Below are positions 23,599 through 31,703 of a stretch of 64,000 nucleotides of DNA, in pieces. The stretch lies in NCBI RefSeq assembly GCF_037860835.1, contig NZ_JBBEOG010000007.1, positions 1 to 64,000 of the forward strand, given 5' to 3'. The stretch's first letter is position 1. Each line of letters begins with the position of its first letter. Origin of the DNA: Aquipuribacter nitratireducens. Lineage in GTDB: Bacteria; Actinomycetota; Actinomycetes; Actinomycetales; JBBAYJ01. Both the position numbers and the translations under genes were made by a program. The notes under the pieces are model-generated. The model did no database searches. It was not told the origin of the DNA and saw only the letters and a program-made list of their open reading frames with translations.

Positions 23599-24048
23599 TC
23601 AGTACAGGCCGGCGCGGACCGCGCCGGACACCGGGAGGCGGGACCGCATCTCGCTGACGAGCTGCGGGGTGAGGGTCGCCTCGGTGCGGCTGACGAGCAG
23701 CGCCATCTCGTAGCCGATGAGCCCGACGTCGCAGCCGGCGTCCGCCATGACCGCGAGGACGGACCCGTCGGAGATCGCCATCGAGAACAGGAAGATGTTG
23801 TCCATCTCGACGATCGCCTGACGCACCTCCCCGCCGGCCAGCTGGCGTGCGGCGCCCCGCGTGAGCGAGGAGATGCCGGACACGATCGCGGCGAGCTGGT
23901 CGCCCTGGGTCCGGTCGAGCTGGTCCGACATGGCCATGAGCAGCCCGTCGGCGGAGACGACGAGGGTGTGGGACACCCCCGGCACGTTCCGGACGAAGTT
24001 GTCGAGCAGCCAGCTGAAGTTGGTGGCCTCGGTGCTCATCGTGGTCAC
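23599..24048 (-). CDS. roadblock/LC7 domain protein, conservon component (CvnB-type)
   Basis: A 149-aa roadblock/LC7 protein ([32 protein letters not shown]). Such proteins act as partners or activators of small Ras-like GTPases. The GTG at 24048 overlaps the kinase stop by four bases (GTGA) and has GGAGG nine bases upstream; an in-frame ATG at 24039 is an alternative. The order kinase-roadblock-DUF742-GTPase is the canonical conservon. Confidence 0.9.
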
Positions 24049-27000
24049 GGTCGCGGTCCTCCGTCGGTCGGTCGTGCGTCGGTCTCGGGGGGGCTGGTGG
24101 GGGCGGTGCCGGGCACGCCGGGGGTGGCGGGCGTCGTCGTGCGGGACAGCGGACGTGCGTTCGGTCCGACGCCCGGGACGATGGAGCGGGGCTCCTCGCC
24201 GTCGTCGTCACCGGCGCGCGCCCGGCTCACGCCGGACGTGAAGCCGGAGAGCATGCTGCGGACGTCGGCTGCGCTGCGCTGCCGCCGCTCCGCCGGGGCG
24301 GCGGGTGCCGGGGCCACGTGGGCGGCGGGGGTCGCCGCCGGCCGGCGGCGGACCAGCGGCGCGGGCCCGTTGCGACTCGTGCCGACCGCACTCGGGCTGT
24401 ACGTCGAGAGCCGGCTCAGCTCGCTGAGCGCCTCGGAGGCGAGCATCGAGCGCTGGCGGACGGCGTCCGGGTCGATCGCGGGGACGACCGGCGTGGACCC
24501 GAGGGACGGCTCCGGCTGGTCGGTGTCGGGCGTCGGCGTGGGGGACGGTCCGCCGACCGGCGCCACCGGGAACGGCTCCGCCGCACGCGCCGGGCCGGGC
24601 ACGGGGTGCCCGACCGGGGCCGCCGGCGGCGGGACCGGGTGCCCCGGTGCAGGCGCCGTGGCACCGAGGGGCGGCTGCTGCCGGACCTCGGGCCGTGCCG
24701 CCGGCGGCACGACCGCGGCGGGCGGGGTGACGGGTGCCGAGCGGTGGCCGAACAGGCTCCGTCGGCCGCGGCGACGTGCTCCACCGGGGAGGATGTCGAC
24801 AGGTCCGGCCACGACGGGCGAGGGAGCCGGCGCGGGCGCCGGGGCCGGCGCAGCGGCCGGCGCGGGCGCCGGGGCCGGAGGCGCGGACGCCGTGGGAGCC
24901 GACGACGGGACCGACGACGGGACCGACGGCCTGGCCACGGGCTGCCCGACGGGCTGCCCGACGGGCTTCTCGACGGGCTTCTCGGCGACCGGCTCCACAG
25001 GTGTGTCGGCGACCGGTTCGACGGGCTTCTCGGCGGGCGTCTCGACCGGCATCTCGGCGGCCTTCTCGACCGGCGTCTCGACCGGCTTCTCGACCGGCTT
25101 CTCGGCGGCCTTCTCGGCGGCCTTCTCGGCGGGCGTCTCGAACGGCGTCTCGACCGGCTTCTCGGCGGGCGTCTCGACGGACTTCTCGACGGACTTCTCG
25201 ACGGACTTCTCGACGGACTTCTCGACGGACTTCTCGACGGACTTCTCGACGGACTTCTCGACGGACTTCTCGACGGACTTCTCGACCGGCTCACGAACGG
25301 GCGTCTCGGTGGGCTTCTCCACCGACGTCGGCTCGGCAGGCTCGACACGCGTCTCGGGCTCCACGACGGGTGCGTCGACCGGCTCGGCGGACGGCCGCTC
25401 GGCGGGCGACGCGACAGGCTCTGCGACGGCGTCCTCGACCGGCGTCCCGACCGGCTTCCCGACCGGCTTCCCGACCGGCTCGTCCACCGGCGCAGGGCGG
25501 CCGTCACGGGCCGGGGCGGTGGCGCTCGACGTCGGGCCGGCAGGCGAGGGCTCGAGGCCGGGGATGGCCGGGGCCTTGGCGGCGGCGACGACCTCACGGC
25601 GCGCGCGGAAGGCCCCGAAGAGACCGGCGCGACGCGGCGCGTCCTTGCCCGCCGGCGCGTTCCGGCCGCTGTCGCCGTCCGGACCGTCGGCGGCAGTGTC
25701 CGCCTGGTCCGCTCCGGCGCCGTGAGCCGAACCCGTCCCGACCGCGGGCCGGCCGGTGGGCGGGACGGGCTCCTGACGGGCGCGGGTGGGGAGCCCGCCG
25801 ACGGGCCGGGTCTCGCCCGGGCCGGACGACGACGGGCGCGTCGTCGACGCGCCGGGCGTCGCCTCTCGCGACGTGACGGGACCGGGCGGCACGACGACCG
25901 GGGTCGGCGGGGCGGGAGCGGTCGCGGCCGCAGCGGCGACCGGGGGGACCGGCCGGGCCGGTGCCGCGGGTGTCGGGGAGACGGTCGGGACGCGCGCAGC
26001 CGACGGAGACACCGATGCGGACGGCGCAACGGAGGGCGCAACGGACGGCGCAGCGGACGGGGCGGCCGCCTGGCCACGGCGCGGCAGCGCACCGCTGCCC
26101 GGCACGACCGTGACGTCGACGGGCGAGGCGTCGCCGCCACTGACGGCGGCCGCGGGCAGCTCGATCGGGGCGCCGACGGCCGGCCGCGACGAGGCGGCGG
26201 CAGGCACCGGCGCACCGACGGGCGCCGCGCTGCCCGAGCGCGCTGCGGGGACGGGTGTACGGGTCGCAGCGGGGGCGGGCCGGGGTGCCGGCGGGCGCGG
26301 TGCGCCGGGACCACCGGGTGCACCGGGCGTCGCCTGGGCCGGGACCCGACCACCGCCGGGCGAGCGCTCCGGCGTGGAGCCGGCCTTCGGCGCCGACGGG
26401 GCCGGAGCCGCCGCGGGCGCGCCCTCGGGGGCCTCGCCGGCCGGAGCCGGAGCGGCCTTGACCGTGCCGGGCACGAACAGCGCGGGTGGCAGGTCGACGG
26501 TGACGACCAGGCCCTTCGACCGACCGCGACGCAGGTTGACCGTGACCCCGAGGCGCCTTGCCAGGCGCCCCACGACGTAGAAGCCGAGTCGCTGCGAGGT
26601 GACGACCTCGTCGGCGCCCGTGCTCCGGATCTTCACCATGGCGGCGGTGATCTCGTCGTCGGTCAGGCCGAGCCCCTCGTCGGTCACGGTGACGCGCACG
26701 CCCGCGGCGGTCCGGCTCGTCGCGACGAGCACGGGGGTGTGGGGCTCGGAGAAGTTGGTCCCGTTCTCCAGGATCTCCGCGAGGAGGTGCGCGAGCTGGA
26801 GCGAGAGGTGGCCCATCGTCGGCGGGTCGACCTGCAGCGCGAGGTTGACGCGCTCGTACTGCTCGATCTCCGACGCGGCGGTGCGGATGACGTCGGACAG
26901 CGGCAGCGGCTTGCGGAGGCGCCGACCGGCGTCGATGCCCGCGAGCACGAGGAGGGACTCGGCGTTGCGGCGCATGCGCGTCGCGAGGTGGTCGAGGCGG

Positions 27001-28343
27001 AAGAGGTTCTCCAGGGTGTCGGGGTCCTCCTCGCGCTGCTCGAGCTGGTCGATGAAGGTCAGCTGCCGCGAGAGCAGGACCTGGTTCCGGCGCGCGACGT
27101 TGACGAACGTCTCGGCGATCGAGCCGCGCAGCGCCGCCTGCTCCTGCGCCACCTCGACGACGGCGCCGTTGACGGCGTTGAAGGCCTCGGCGAGCGCCGC
27201 GACCTCGTCGCTGCCGCCGGCCTCGATCCGCGGGAGGTCGACGTCGGGCTGCTGACCGGGGCTGCGCACCTGCTCGACCATCTGCGGCAGCCGCTCGCGC
27301 ACCGTCGTGGCGGCCTCGGTGAGCTGACGCAGCGGCTTCACGATGCGCCGGGAGAGCGTGAGGGAGAGCAGGAGGGTCACCCCGACACCGAGGACGGCCG
27401 CCGCCAGGGCGAGCGAGGCGAGGAGCGTGGCGCGGTCGCTGGCCGCGACCGCGGCGGCGCCGGCGTCGTCCGCGACGGTCGTGAGCGCGGCGTCGACGAC
27501 GGCGATGCGCTCGTCGGTCAGGGCCTGCCACAGCTCGGGCGTGAGCCCGGACTGGCGCACCGTGCCGGGCGAGGACAGCGCCGTGCGGGCACGACCGGCG
27601 GACCAGCCCTCGACCTCGACGAGGCCCATGTCCTCCGAGACCCGGGCCGCCGCGTCCCGGCCGACGGCGAACTCCCATGCGTCGAGGGCGTCGGACTGGG
27701 CGCCGGCGAGCGTGGCGAAGGTGCGCACGTCCCCCGCGGTCGCCGTGCCGGAGAGGAGCCGGAGGCCGGCGGCCTGCTCGCGGAGCGCGACGTCCCGGAC
27801 GGCGAGGAGGTGGCCGAACCCGGTGAGGAGCGCGCGCGTCGTCGGGTCGTCGGTGCCGGACGCGACACGGCCGGGCATCGCGACGTCCTCGCGGATGACG
27901 GCGTCGTAGTCGCCGAGCACGTCGTCGAGCGACGGGTCGGAGGAGTCGACCGTGGTGCGCAGGCCACGCAGCGAGTCGTGCACCGCCTGCATGCGGACGA
28001 GCCCGGCGCCGGCCTGGGCGGACAGCACGTCCATGTCGACGTCGGTCAGGGCAGCGCGCGAGGCCTCGAGGCCGGCGTCCACCTCCGCGCGGACCTGCGG
28101 GAGCGCGGCGGCCGCCTCCTCGCTGCCCTGGATGGCGGCGGCGGTGACGGCGCGCTCGGTGGCGATGCCGCCGACCAGCTCGGCGAAGGAGCCCCCGATA
28201 CCGGCCAGCGTCTCGATCTGGCGCGCCTCGCGGGCCCCCTGCACCTGGCCGGCGGCGAGGAGCCCGGCGGTGGTGGCGAGCAGCAGGAGGGGCAGGACCA
28301 GGACCGCGAGGATCTTCGACCGGATACCGGTGGGACGCAGCAT
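24045..28343 (-). CDS. conservon sensor kinase (NIT-HAMP-HATPase) with long repeat tail
   Basis: A 1432-aa membrane protein of the CvnA type. It has TM1 at about 10-32, an extracellular nitrate/nitrite-sensing-like helical domain to about residue 305, TM2 and HAMP ([19 protein letters not shown]), and a histidine-kinase-like ATPase at about 520-626 with N box [10 protein letters not shown] and G box DEGLGL. The normal kinase core ends there. About 800 residues of Pro/Ala/Glu/Val low-complexity sequence follow, with a nine-copy VEKS repeat at about 1018-1054 in a wider run of EKPVE/ETPVE variants. Short conserved-looking helices occur near the end ([30 protein letters not shown]). GGAAGG precedes the ATG. 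Conservon kinases usually end soon after a shorter tail; this one is expanded. Confidence 0.9.
25181..25288. repeat. 12-bp tandem repeat, nine copies, inside the conservon kinase gene
   Basis: The unit ACTTCTCGACGG is repeated nine times head to tail at 12-base steps from 25181, the last copy with one change. On the coding strand it reads as VEKS repeats. It lies in a longer degenerate stretch (about 24930-25510) of the same VEKP/VETP type. The identity of the copies points to recent slippage-type expansion; being a multiple of three, changes keep the frame. Confidence 0.9.
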
Positions 28344-28490
28344 GGCCAGCCTTCCACGAGACGACGACGACCGACCGCCCGGGCAGGTCGGTCCTGTCCA
28401 GATTCGGCAGCAGGTCGTGGGAGGTGAACCGGGGCGTCGGGGGGCGTCACCCGGACGGAGCAGCGCACACCCCCCACTGACCCGACCGGG

Positions 28491-28519
28491 TTGTCATCGA
28501 ACGTATGTTCGAGTAGAGT
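28491..28519 (+). promoter_or_regulatory. promoter of the DUF222/HNH gene with SOS box in its spacer
   Basis: TTGTCA (28491-28496) and TAGAGT (28514-28519) are separated by exactly 17 bp. The SOS box occupies 16 of those spacer bases. The ATG at 28543 follows a GGGGAGG site, so this mRNA has a normal leader of about 17 bases. Confidence 0.8.
28497..28512. promoter_or_regulatory. LexA (SOS) box
   Basis: TCGAACGTATGTTCGA is a perfect palindrome matching the actinobacterial LexA site TCGAAC-N4-GTTCGA. It lies between the -35 and -10 elements, so LexA binding would block transcription until DNA damage. Confidence 0.88.
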
Positions 28520-28542
28520 GGGTGGGAACGGGGAGGTGGCGC

Positions 28543-30019
28543 ATGGTGGGGACGGCCGACGAGACGCTCGACGAGAGCCTCGCGCGTCTCCAGGCGGACA
28601 TCGACCGTCTCGCCGAACGACTCGCCCCGGACCGCGCCTGGCAGCAGGTCGACGATGCGGTCGTCGCCGCCGTCGGTCCGCTCTCGCGGGCCCGCGCGTC
28701 ACTCGAGGCCCTGCACCTCTCGCTGGTGCGGGAGATCGACCAGCGCGGCGTCGCGAGGCACTCCCCTGTCGCATCGTCACCGGAGGCGTTCGTCCGGGTC
28801 ACGTGTCTCGTCGGTCCCGCGCAGGCACGTCGCGACGTCGCAGCGGCGCGGGCGACGGCACCCGGCAGACCGTTGGAGACGTTCGCGCGGGCGCTGGCCG
28901 CGGGGCAGGTGACGCGAGCGGGCCTCGACGCCGCCGTGCGAGCCGTCGAGCGCATCCCCTCCGGGCTGCTGGCGCAGGAGGGGGCCGGGGGCCCTCGTCG
29001 GGGACTACCTGCTGACGGCTGCCGCCGGGGCGTCGCCGCGAGCTCTCCACCATGCGGTCGCCGACCTGCTCCACACCCTCGCCCCGGAGCGCGCCGACCG
29101 CTTCGACCCGCTGGCGCACGAACGGCGCTACCTCGAGGTCGGCACCGACTCCACGGGGATGGTCGTCGGGCGGTTCGCGCTCGACGGGGCGACGGGTGCT
29201 CAGCTCGTGACGGCCCTCAACCGCTGGTCGGCGCCCGCGGCGGGCGCCGACGGGAAGCCGGACCCGAGGTCGGCACCCCAACGGCGCGCCGACGCGCTGG
29301 CCGCCGCCCTGGACGCCGCCCTTGCCGTGCAGTCGCCGCGCCGCTCGGAGCGCCCTCGGGTCGTCGTCCACCTCACCCCGGGCCAGCTCGACGAGCTCGG
29401 CTCCACGGTCGACGGCCTGCCGTGGATCGAAGGCGGGGGTGCGGTGTCCGTGGCCGCGGCGCGTCGTCTCGCCTGCGACGCCGTCCTCCAGCGGCTCGTG
29501 ATGGAGCCGAGCCTCGGCCCGCTCGACGTCGGGAGGACCGTGCGGCTCGCCACGTTCCCGCAGCGGGTGGCCCTCGCGGCTCGGGACGGAGGGTGTGTCG
29601 TGCCGGGGTGCGGCGCTGCACCGGACGTCTGCGACGCCCACCACGTCGTGCACTGGGCGGACGGCGGCCCCACGGACATCGGCAACCTCTGCCTGCTGTG
29701 CCCGGCGCACCACACCGCGGTGCACGCGGGAACCTGGGACGTCTCGATCGACGCCGGCACCCAGCGAGTGACGGTCACACCACCCGCATGGGTCGATCCA
29801 CTGCGCCGTCCACAGCCCGCGTGGCGACAGAAGGCCCGGACGACCTGGGAGCAGTTCCGGGAGGACCTCCGCCGCACGCGGGACGCGGCTCCGCCGCCCT
29901 CGCCTCCGCCCACACGATCGTCCGCGGGGCCACCCCAGTGCTCGGAGACGTCTCGTCCCCTCGATCCCCGCGATCCCATCGACGTCTTCGACGCGGCCCT
30001 CGTGGCCAGTGGGGCGTGA
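28543..30019 (+). pseudogene. DUF222/HNH endonuclease (13E12-type), frameshifted
   Basis: The N-terminal DUF222 part reads in one frame from the ATG at 28543 (MVGTADETLDESLARLQ) to about 28980. The rest reads in the next frame from about 28982 to 30019 (ALVGDYLLTAAAGASPRALHHA onwards) and ends in an HNH nuclease motif (CVVPGCGAAPDVCDAHHVVHW, then GGPTDIGNLCLLCPAHH). Removing one G from the runs at 28980-28984 or 28987-28991 joins them into a continuous protein of about 491 aa. Either the gene is broken or the homopolymer is a sequencing error. The family is abundant and multicopy in actinobacteria (13E12 repeat proteins), and members in mycobacteria are known to carry SOS boxes, as here. Confidence 0.85.
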
Positions 30020-30065
30020 GCTGCACCGAGCGACCCGCGGGCCTGTCCGCACTGCGACCCGCGGG

Positions 30066-30071
30066 TACGGT
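30066..30071 (+). promoter_or_regulatory. -10 of a leaderless quinone oxidoreductase gene
   Basis: TACGGT ends 7 bases before the GTG at 30079, so transcription should begin at or next to the start codon. Confidence 0.5.
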
Positions 30072-30078
30072 CGCTGGC

Positions 30079-31068
30079 GTGCGCGCCGTTGTCGTCGAGG
30101 AGCCGGGCGGGCCGGAGGCCCTCGTCGTCCGGGAGGTCCCCGAACCCGAACCAGGCCCGGGCGAGGTGGTCGTCGAGGTCGCGGCCGCCGGGGTGAACCG
30201 CGCCGACCTCCTGCAGCGCCGAGGGCGCTACGACCCCCCACCGGGCACACCCGCCTGGCCGGGGCTGGAGTGCTCGGGACACGTCGTGGCGGTCGGCGAG
30301 GGCGTCGACGGGCTCGCCGTCGGCGAGCCGGTGGTCGCCCTCCTCGACGGCGGCGGCTACGCGGAGCGCGTCCGGGTCCGGGCGGGCCAGGTGATGCCGG
30401 TGCCGGACGGCGTCGACCTCGTCGAGGCGGCTGCGCTGCCCGAGGCCGCGGCGACGGTCCACAGCAACGTGGTCTGGACCGCACGCGGTGGCGCCGGCCT
30501 GCGCCGCGGTGAGGTGTTCCTCGTCCACGGCGCGACGAGCGGCATCGGGTCGTTCGCCACCCAGCTCGCGTCGGCGCTCGGTGCCCGGGCCTTCGCGACG
30601 GCCGGTTCGCCGCAGAAGGTGGCCGCGGCGGCGGCGTTCGGCGCCGAGCGGGTGCTCGACTACCGCAGCGACGACCTGGCCGCGGTGCTGCGCGAGGTGA
30701 CGGCGGGCGCCGGGGTCGACGTGGTCCTCGACCCGGTCGGCGCCCGGTACCTGGGCCTCCACCTGGAGGTCCTGGCGCCGGAGGGTCGGCTCGTCGTCAT
30801 CGGGCTGATGGGGGGAACGACGGCGGAGCTCGACATGGCGACCCTCATGCGCCGCCGCCTCACGGTCCACGGCAGCACGTTGCGCGCCCGACCGTGGCGG
30901 GAGAAGGCCGAGATCTGCGCCGAGGTCGTCCGGGACGTGTGGCCGCTCGTCGCGGACGGGCGCGTCCGTCCGGTCGTCGACCGCGTGCTGCCGCTCGAGC
31001 GGGCCGCGGAGGCCCACCGGGTGCTCGAGGCGGGCGAGCACGTCGGCAAGGTGCTGCTGCGACCGTGA
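30079..31068 (+). CDS. NAD(P)H:quinone oxidoreductase, PIG3/zeta-crystallin type
   Basis: A 329-aa zinc-free medium-chain dehydrogenase/reductase that reduces quinones with NADPH. It has the GroES-like N-terminal domain (NRADLLQRRGRYDPPPGTPAWPGLECSG, the PIG3 hallmark) and a Rossmann fold with HGATSGIGSFATQLA near residue 152. No zinc-binding cysteine set is present. The GTG at 30079 fits a leaderless start behind TACGGT. It precedes the proteasome-activator gene by 17 bases and may share its transcript. Confidence 0.9.
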   Translation: MRAVVVEEPGGPEALVVREVPEPEPGPGEVVVEVAAAGVNRADLLQRRGRYDPPPGTPAWPGLECSGHVVAVGEGVDGLAVGEPVVALLDGGGYAERVRVRAGQVMPVPDGVDLVEAAALPEAAATVHSNVVWTARGGAGLRRGEVFLVHGATSGIGSFATQLASALGARAFATAGSPQKVAAAAAFGAERVLDYRSDDLAAVLREVTAGAGVDVVLDPVGARYLGLHLEVLAPEGRLVVIGLMGGTTAELDMATLMRRRLTVHGSTLRARPWREKAEICAEVVRDVWPLVADGRVRPVVDRVLPLERAAEAHRVLEAGEHVGKVLLRP

Positions 31069-31085
31069 TCCCGCACGATGGCCCG

Positions 31086-31703
31086 GTGAGCGAGCCCGAC
31101 ACCGACCGGACCGACGACGTCACCGACGCCACCGACGTCACCGACGAGGCGCAGGACACCGAGGAGCAGTCGCGTGACCGGGTGCTCGTCGTGACGCCGC
31201 AGGGGATGAGCGTCAGCGGCGACACGAGCGAGGAGAACCTCGTCGGCATGGTCGAGCAGCCCGCGAAGGTCATGCGGATCGGGAGCATGATCAAGCAGCT
31301 GCTCGAGGAGGTGCGCACCGCGCCGCTCGACGAGGCCGGACGGGCCCGGCTCGCGGACGTCCACTCCCGGACGATCGCCGAGCTCGAGACGGGGCTGTCG
31401 GACGACCTGGTGGCCGAGCTGCGTCGCATCGCCCTCCCCTTCTCACCCGACAACACCCCCTCCGACGCCGAGCTGCGGATCGCCCAGGCGCAGCTCGTCG
31501 GCTGGCTCGAGGGTCTGTTCCACGGCATCCAGACCACGTTGTTCGCCCAGCAGATGGCGGCCCGGGCCCAGCTGGAGCAGATGCGACGGCAGGCGCTGCC
31601 GGGTCCGGTGCTGCCGGGCCACCCCGGCCAGGCGGACCAGCCCGGCGACCCCGGTCGACCGGGCCAGCAGGACCGGCCGCACCGGACCGGTCAGTACCTG
31701 TAG
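31086..31703 (+). CDS. Bpa/PafE-type bacterial proteasome activator
   Basis: A 205-aa protein of the ATP-independent proteasome activator family. The core helices (LVGMVEQPAKVMRIGSMIKQLLEEVRTAPLDE and ELRIAQAQLVGWLEGLFHGIQTTLFAQQMAAR) form a ring in known homologues, and the last four residues GQYL are the motif that docks into 20S proteasome pockets and opens the gate. The N-terminal 30 residues are Asp/Thr-rich and the region before the GQYL tail is a Pro/Gly/Gln linker. The GTG at 31086 was chosen by fit to the family and a CACGAT six bases upstream. It implies that the organism has a 20S proteasome. Confidence 0.9.
   Translation: MSEPDTDRTDDVTDATDVTDEAQDTEEQSRDRVLVVTPQGMSVSGDTSEENLVGMVEQPAKVMRIGSMIKQLLEEVRTAPLDEAGRARLADVHSRTIAELETGLSDDLVAELRRIALPFSPDNTPSDAELRIAQAQLVGWLEGLFHGIQTTLFAQQMAARAQLEQMRRQALPGPVLPGHPGQADQPGDPGRPGQQDRPHRTGQYL

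Follow-up and report, generated by a model that had tools for sequence, protein, structure and literature searches.

How did a gene for a putative HNH nuclease come to stand behind what looks like an SOS-controlled promoter in Aquipuribacter nitratireducens, and what purpose could such control serve? The window, by which is meant the whole stretch of 64,000 nucleotides analysed here, holds a LexA-type palindrome at 28497-28512, just upstream of a DUF222/HNH gene, a class of gene that is common yet unexplained in actinobacteria. The site is very probably a LexA-repressed, damage-inducible promoter that belongs to the DUF222-HNH (13E12-type) nuclease gene and was inserted together with it. Published sources are cited from excerpts of their text.

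The promoter and its operator

The initial annotation had described a LexA palindrome sandwiched between TTGTCA and TAGAGT, and a reading of 28491-28519 bears this layout out:

28491-28496, + strand: -35-like hexamer TTGTCA (sequence, promoter scan), common to paralogue L015 and absent in L013 and L014
28497-28512, no strand assigned: predicted LexA operator (SOS box) TCGAACGTATGTTCGA (sequence, motif search)
28514-28519, + strand: -10-like hexamer TAGAGT, one base (G) 3' of the box
28530-28539, + strand: probable ribosome-binding site GGGGAGGTGG, read from the sequence

The promoter ends 23 bp upstream of the DUF222/HNH start codon, an ATG at 28543, and the box lies in the 17-bp spacer between TTGTCA and TAGAGT, so that the operator overlaps or abuts the promoter elements. 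Against TCGAAC-N4-GTTCGA it has no mismatch, and it is the sole such palindrome in the window; with up to three mismatches allowed, the 16-mer still finds a single site there, matched on both strands (chance expectation 0.14). A promoter scan of 28300-30200 returned one promoter-like site, the promoter at 28491-28519 (shuffles 0.0). The box is thus, as had been claimed, a full match to the actinobacterial LexA consensus, and it fits both the S. venezuelae LexA regulon motif tCGAAC-N4-GNNCGa (excerpt of PMC9380542) and the 16-bp end, TCGAAMRYWTGTTCGA, of the M. tuberculosis LexA motif (excerpt of PMC4181829). LexA bound at 28497-28512 would cover the spacer and abut the -10, and would thereby keep RNA polymerase off; RecA-driven cleavage of LexA would free the promoter, and the DUF222-HNH nuclease would then be made.

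The -35/-10 sandwich, although present at the window site, is not conserved. The window unit and the L015 unit have TTGTCA, the box, the G and TAG in common, whereas L013 and L014 keep the box and the -10 without the -35, which rules the sandwich out as a general design. The spacing of TAGAGT to the box is equal in L013, L014 and L015, and it recurs, as TANNNT, in nearly all of 32 Rhodococcus copies.

LexA boxes in the genome of the window

In this genome (3.83 Mb, 26 contigs), CGAAC-N4-GTTCG occurs exactly at 12 sites, and the 16-bp TCGAAC-N4-GTTCGA at five exactly and at 27 once a single mismatch is allowed (2 for the reversed control pattern). The DUF222 profile PF02720 gives eight matches, corresponding to seven genes, so the family is repeated in the genome. 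All five exact boxes lie directly 5' of DUF222 genes, namely the window gene, L013, L014, L015 and L017, and a simple area estimate puts the chance of this at about 2e-16. A sixth DUF222 gene, L019, has a box with one mismatch; the seventh, L018/L020, has no box within 350 bp, and a different motif, GGGTTGTGTCCGGGG, is found there. The search before other DUF222 genes of the same genome that the initial annotation had suggested therefore leaves six of seven boxed, five of them exactly. The genome also encodes LexA (TIGR00498, 249 bits, C3:362005), and a near-box with one mismatch, TCGAGCGCATGTTCGA, lies at C3:361816, 189 bp upstream of the LexA gene. That the window palindrome arose by chance and has no LexA function is hardly credible, and is rejected by the five-of-five association together with the phylum-wide enrichment described below. 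The genome differs from S. venezuelae in that DUF222 genes hold all of its exact boxes; in the main text of the S. venezuelae paper (PMC9380542) the words HNH and DUF are absent.

Two further near-boxes precede genes read by eye as recA (L007) and as the start of a mutasome operon (L010). At L011 (G000:C11:70779), an exact CGAAC-N4-GTTCG lies within an ORF that by eye resembles a reverse transcriptase, possibly one of the defence type.

Empty sites in two congeners

Comparison with two congeners, the closer (G001) and G002, delimits a unit at the window locus:

28467-30062, + strand: unit of LexA-boxed promoter and DUF222/HNH gene, absent at that place in both congeners
30030-30065, + strand: GCGACCCGCGGG, a 12-bp direct repeat present twice (30030, 30054) at the right-hand end of the unit

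The G001 sequences aligned to 26452-28466 (82%) and 30063-31128 (80%) have 1 bp between them, and the G002 sequences aligned to 26448-28409 (73%) and 30066-31600 (77%) have 91 bp. L015 behaves likewise, its flanks being 21 bp apart in G001 and 1 bp apart in G002 as against about 1.57 kb in its own genome. Both congeners thus have an empty site for each of these two units, and clean empty sites exist for two of the five exact-box copies. None was found for L014, where the slot is filled by other sequence in both congeners, for L013, whose flanks matched at different places, or for L017, of which G001 has a boxed counterpart nearby with about 0.7 kb of other DNA before the shared flank.

Box, promoter and gene appear, from these alignments, to form one precise insertion, an arrangement that suggests that promoter and gene were gained as one unit; judged by sequence comparison, the box is part of a mobile or duplicated unit and not of the host locus. 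It could be argued instead that the unit was lost twice in the congeners. However, G002 is by identity more distant than G001, so insertion on the branch of the window is the simpler and more probable reading.

Terminal inverted repeats and a target duplication were sought at the unit ends and not found, the longest shared end words being 5-6 bp and as frequent in shuffles, which speaks against a transposon or insertion sequence. Carriage by a phage or plasmid is ruled against by two weak matches, to HNH only, in a peptide-pattern scan of viral contigs that can miss divergent relatives, and by a plasmid search whose six records cover at most 22% of the query. The 3' end of the unit forms no better stem-loop than shuffled sequence does (z 0.30). 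The right ends of the window and L015 inserts have CGACCCGC in common (17 of 200 shuffles give a word as long).

The DUF222/HNH gene

Of the claim that the box stands upstream of a DUF222/HNH nuclease gene, the family assignment holds, since the domains are present, but the reading frame is broken in the assembly:

28543-28989, + strand: N-terminal part of DUF222, frame 1 (tblastn with L014: 54% identity, residues 1-149)
28976-30019, + strand: rest of DUF222 and HNH, frame 2 (tblastn with L014: 63%, residues 145-495, to 30001)

The frame shift falls within a G-rich stretch near 28976-28993, and no single intact reading frame was found for the window gene, tblastn giving two. The frame-2 part matches PF02720 at 84.5 bits (profile 111-306), over the Pfam cut-off, with HNH (PF01844, 28.9 bits) C-terminal to it, and none of the 31 rows of alignment A2, among them the open part of the window gene, departs from the HNH residues (CDAHH..HW, N, HH, H). 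The break may be an assembly error or real; it lowers the case for a functional gene at this place and leaves the family descent unaffected. With its frame broken, the window gene may be a decayed copy, a dead nuclease that the switch would still induce, while intact boxed copies stand elsewhere in the genome. Paralogues L013, L014 and L017 have open frames. L015, split over two frames and interrupted by a stop close to its HNH, has clearly decayed. The nearest paralogue to the window gene is only 67% identical over the unit.

Breadth of the SOS link

That SOS-boxed 13E12-type DUF222 genes are known in mycobacteria, as the initial annotation had it, agrees with what is published for M. tuberculosis (excerpts of PMC5005354 and PMC4181829), in which five putative HNH endonucleases belong to the RecA-dependent mitomycin C response (excerpt of PMC8151990). 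The 13E12/REP13E12 genes of that species share with the present unit the DUF222 and HNH domains, repetition in the genome and LexA regulation, predicted in the present case, and gene conversion between copies is reported for M. tuberculosis (excerpts of PMC5005354, PMC4181829 and PMC13061034); the window gene, in contrast, lies in a different actinobacterial genus, has empty sites and is frame-broken. REP13E12 is described as a gene-conversion hotspot (87 events) without defined function, in a text whose available part does not contain the words SOS and HNH (PMC13061034). Among the literature matches listed, which consist of titles and the starts of abstracts and include few subscription papers, no DUF222-LexA link appears outside mycobacteria; mentions of DUF222 in the available text of PMC10841881 and PMC10123090 in fact concern DUF2220.

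The regulatory link is now much wider. Of 119 genomes sampled from the phylum, 45 have DUF222, and the number of matches in a genome ranges from 0 to 21 when fragments are included. Survey A took the best-scoring 80 of 229 relatives in GTDB genomes, 41 of them Rhodococcus, and covered the span from -350 to +250 relative to the open start. Of the 80 loci, 54 had a box with no more than one mismatch (7 exact) and 61 one with no more than two, whereas control spans downstream of the same genes gave 0/77 and 2/77, respectively. Rhodococcus accounts for much of this (40/41 with at most one mismatch, as against 14/39 elsewhere); the boxed loci outside it come from Nocardioides, Pimelobacter, Actinophytocola, Amycolatopsis, Blastococcus, metagenome-assembled Actinomycetota and Acidimicrobiia, and a box at this threshold is absent in four Kribbella and two Terrabacter loci. 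Survey B took the best DUF222 match per genome, at the 29 of 44 other matching genomes for which the locus was given, and found 12 boxes with at most one mismatch and 19 with at most two (controls 0/24 and 1/24). Survey C comprised 40 further genes from the survey B genomes, hand-picked among the matches listed before the box search and so, through our own choice and the shared genomes, neither random nor independent of B; allowing one mismatch, 20 of these were boxed (0.00 expected from dinucleotide shuffles), and allowing two, 28 were (1.45 expected). L186 and L213 look like one locus, as do L170 and L215. A near-perfect LexA box thus stands before roughly half of the sampled DUF222 genes, well outside mycobacteria, and the remainder are without one.

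Promoter layouts were compared for 54 near-perfect boxes (8 from the genus of the window, 14 from survey A, 12 from B and 20 from C), one R. erythropolis-type copy representing many and the near-copies L156 and L160 being left out. In 19 of these, TANNNT follows the box immediately or after a single base, starting 16 or 17 bp from the first base of the box; in 18 it starts 5-7 bp ahead of that base and overlaps or just precedes the 5' end. Both positions are occupied in a few boxes and neither in others. Such differing layouts suggest either that SOS control arose more than once or that it persisted while promoters changed. L017 exemplifies the second layout, with TACTAT overlapping the 5' end of its box and a GTG start about 10 bp past it, and the box is exact also in L091 and L093, its relatives in G001.

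DUF222 genes of the congeners and a second motif

The initial annotation had held that its claim would fail if close relatives lacked the box upstream of their other DUF222 genes, and here the outcome is divided. Four of the ten congener DUF222 genes looked at are boxed, all exactly (L053, L091 and L093 in G001; L055 in G002), but six are not, no box with at most two mismatches lying near L056 and L109 (G001) or L054, L058, L105 and L090 (G002). The motif GGGTTGTGTCCGGGG accompanies five of these six unboxed genes as well as L018/L020, and none of the six motif genes is boxed. The three genomes of the genus contain it at 11 places and the 56 other relatives searched at none; six occurrences precede DUF222 genes, three a small conserved ORF and two a small membrane-like ORF. 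This conserved non-coding motif may represent another promoter class. Its sites are as follows:

G000:C2:521177, G000:C2:187371, G000:C6:144856 and L099-L109: GGGTTGTGTCCGGGG

Unit edges and apparent concerted evolution in Rhodococcus

Rhodococcus offers copies close enough to place the ends of the repeated unit. Nine copies at unrelated places in R. erythropolis NBRC 15567 were compared in all 36 pairings, which align at 88-92% over 1317-1395 bp. The alignment opens on the first base of the box in 15 pairings and no more than 73 bp ahead of it in the rest, and it closes 47-71 bp past the stop codon. The 5' edge of the Rhodococcus unit accordingly lies 0-75 bp before the LexA box and its 3' edge 50-70 bp past the stop. 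An identity profile in 50-bp bins (45 of 113 paralogue pairs sampled) is no higher than chance (41-46%) as far as 50 bp ahead of the box and reaches 56% in the last bin 5' of it; the bin starting at the box is at 87%, followed by 77% at +1250, 58% at +1300 and chance from +1350.

Thirty-two copies from four genomes (L111-L166) were sorted by flank matches into nine positions, one of which, g9, rests on the right flank alone. Mean identity over the unit is 90.7% for same-genome pairs (113), 88.4% for same-position pairs (43) and 88.3% for pairs that share neither (340), and the nearest copy is a genome-mate in 26 of 32 cases and the positional counterpart in one. To the right, flanks at the same position are for the most part 92-95% identical, whereas the 800 bp on the left reach only 77-88%, which limits the contrast between unit and flank to the right side; the erasure of positional signal inside the unit is independent of that contrast. 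On the tree, genome labels group more strongly than in any of 2000 shuffles, whereas position labels behave as chance (1975 of 2000 shuffles as high). The P-2 and IEGM 1409 copies each form one group (99/95 and 96/86), and the R. erythropolis and R. qingshengii copies do not form single groups, R. qingshengii alone being unclear (39 of 500 shuffles as low).

All 32 copies are boxed (31 with one mismatch, one with two, none exact), the agreement of the half-sites in column counts being partly by construction, because the copies were found via TCGAA-N5-GTTCG. Frames are intact in 29 of 32, and dN/dS is about 0.06 (91 pairs, 14 of 28 copies, one intact copy left out of the set). The pattern fits gene conversion between copies that would be functional, and within each Rhodococcus genome concerted evolution seems to link the SOS-boxed DUF222 copies over the nine positions. 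Concerted evolution was not seen in the genus of the window, where the copies are too diverged to show conversion. In two genomes the sequence next to the right flank of position g9 (L135/L142) has no unit, although a rearrangement affects the left side. At L135, L142, L279 and L280 the unit sits at a rearrangement edge; the flanks are adjacent in R. erythropolis, and those of g9 lie about 12 to 141 kb apart in three other genomes searched.

Predicted fold of the protein

The AlphaFold model of a Nocardioides relative, L155, has a pLDDT of 83.8, and of 95.3 for the N-terminal 187 residues alone. With the full model, the first 12 rows of structural matches are DNA-binding domains of the ParB/Noc/Spo0J/KorB group (Z 9.8-7.1) and the first unrelated row is an HNH match at Z 6.8; with the N-terminal part, the first 13 rows belong to that group (Z 9.4-6.3) and the first unrelated row follows at Z 6.2. 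These matches span 95-105 residues at 10-19% identity, with an rmsd mostly of 2.6-3.1 and up to 4.2; in the closest comparison, 104 residues of L155 align with the 105-residue domain of site-bound Noc (6y93, Z 9.2, rmsd 2.6). However, the aligned ranges cover the helix-turn-helix part only, and helical folds easily reach middling Z, the N-terminal maximum of 9.4 lying below the caution limit of about 13 for such folds in what was a re-examination of Foldseek's own candidates (Foldseek E-values for the ParB-type matches, 0.4-0.6). A ParB/Noc-like DNA reader in the N-terminal domain of DUF222 is therefore best treated as a lead from modelling. The HNH part of the model aligns with McrA, ScoMcrA and IscB (Z 5.6-6.8), with which only this small domain is shared, and its best PDB profile match by sequence is a group II intron maturase (E 0.0024). 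The window-type protein is most likely a DNA endonuclease in which a predicted ParB/Noc-like helical DNA-binding domain is followed by an HNH domain.

What the units may be for

Several observations count against the LexA-repressed promoter carried with its nuclease gene: the frame at the window is broken, one of seven DUF222 genes in its own genome and six of ten in the congeners are unboxed, about half of the sampled phylum genes are without a near-perfect box, the distance from box to -10 varies, no Rhodococcus box among the 32 is exact, and six unboxed genes carry another motif. With that reading retained as very probable, the question becomes what the arrangement would achieve.

It is possible, although we would not favour it outright, that the unit is a selfish homing-like element, in which a site-reading nuclease is timed by LexA to RecA activity and recombination, the breaks it makes are mended with the help of other copies, so that the unit spreads or is homogenised. 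This would add a purpose to the LexA-controlled promoter and not replace it. As with a free-standing homing endonuclease, a nuclease gene is found here together with matching empty sites in relatives (window, L015), and broken or decayed copies at the window, at L015 and in 3 of 32 Rhodococcus cases are in keeping with it. So too are the closer resemblance of Rhodococcus copies within genomes than by position and their grouping by genome on the tree, a unit that begins 0-75 bp 5' of the box and runs 50-70 bp beyond the stop, the modelled ParB/Noc-like fold joined to an HNH, and the REP13E12 conversion hotspot of M. tuberculosis (excerpt of PMC13061034). However, no cleavage site is known, the unit ends show neither target-site duplication nor terminal repeat, gene conversion may proceed passively between any repeats, and the dN/dS of about 0.06 equally fits a function that serves the host; moreover, the copies in the genus of the window are too diverged and clean empty sites are confined to two of the five exact-box copies. 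Extended to the phylum, the tentative proposal would be that DUF222-HNH units are LexA-timed, homing-like gene-conversion elements, in which a ParB/Noc-like reader picks the site and the HNH domain cuts. Because LexA would release the nuclease only when RecA is active, breaks could be repaired from other copies, and a unit with its 5' edge at or just before the LexA box could spread and homogenise within chromosomes without a transposase. Such a scheme, if true, would explain the abundance of the family, the decay of copies and the REP13E12 hotspot.

A host DNA-repair nuclease, by which DUF222-HNH would process damaged or mismatched DNA within the SOS repertoire, appears unlikely. It would account for the strong purifying selection in Rhodococcus and for the SOS co-regulation, and a hypothetical mismatch-repair role has been suggested for the M. 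tuberculosis 13E12 HNH proteins (excerpt of PMC4181829); but a core repair enzyme would not usually be lineage-specific, occur in broken copies or vary from 0 to 21 matches among genomes. More doubtful still is a self-killing or defence nuclease that is triggered by damage and, once freed from LexA, degrades the DNA of the host or of an invader. Over-expression of the HNH nuclease MSMEG_1275, for which DUF222 is not stated, kills M. smegmatis (excerpt of PMC9416677), and decayed copies would suit a costly toxin; however, only one of five HNH proteins was toxic in the same study (PMC9416677), and the three proteins tested here gave no PADLOC match.

Whichever purpose applies to the LexA-controlled unit, four things are new here: the empty sites, the placing of the LexA box on or close to the border of the repeated unit, the counts across the phylum and a possible ParB-like reader.

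Neighbouring genes

Upstream of the window gene, 24045-28343 (- strand) encodes a 1432-aa NIT/HAMP/HATPase sensor-kinase-like (histidine-kinase-like) protein in which a long stretch is repetitive and rich in Pro/Glu/Lys/Ser (VEKSVEKS repeats). Downstream follow a zinc-binding dehydrogenase and then, two genes from the DUF222 gene, the bacterial proteasome activator Bpa at 31197-31703 (+ strand; BPA, 240 bits).
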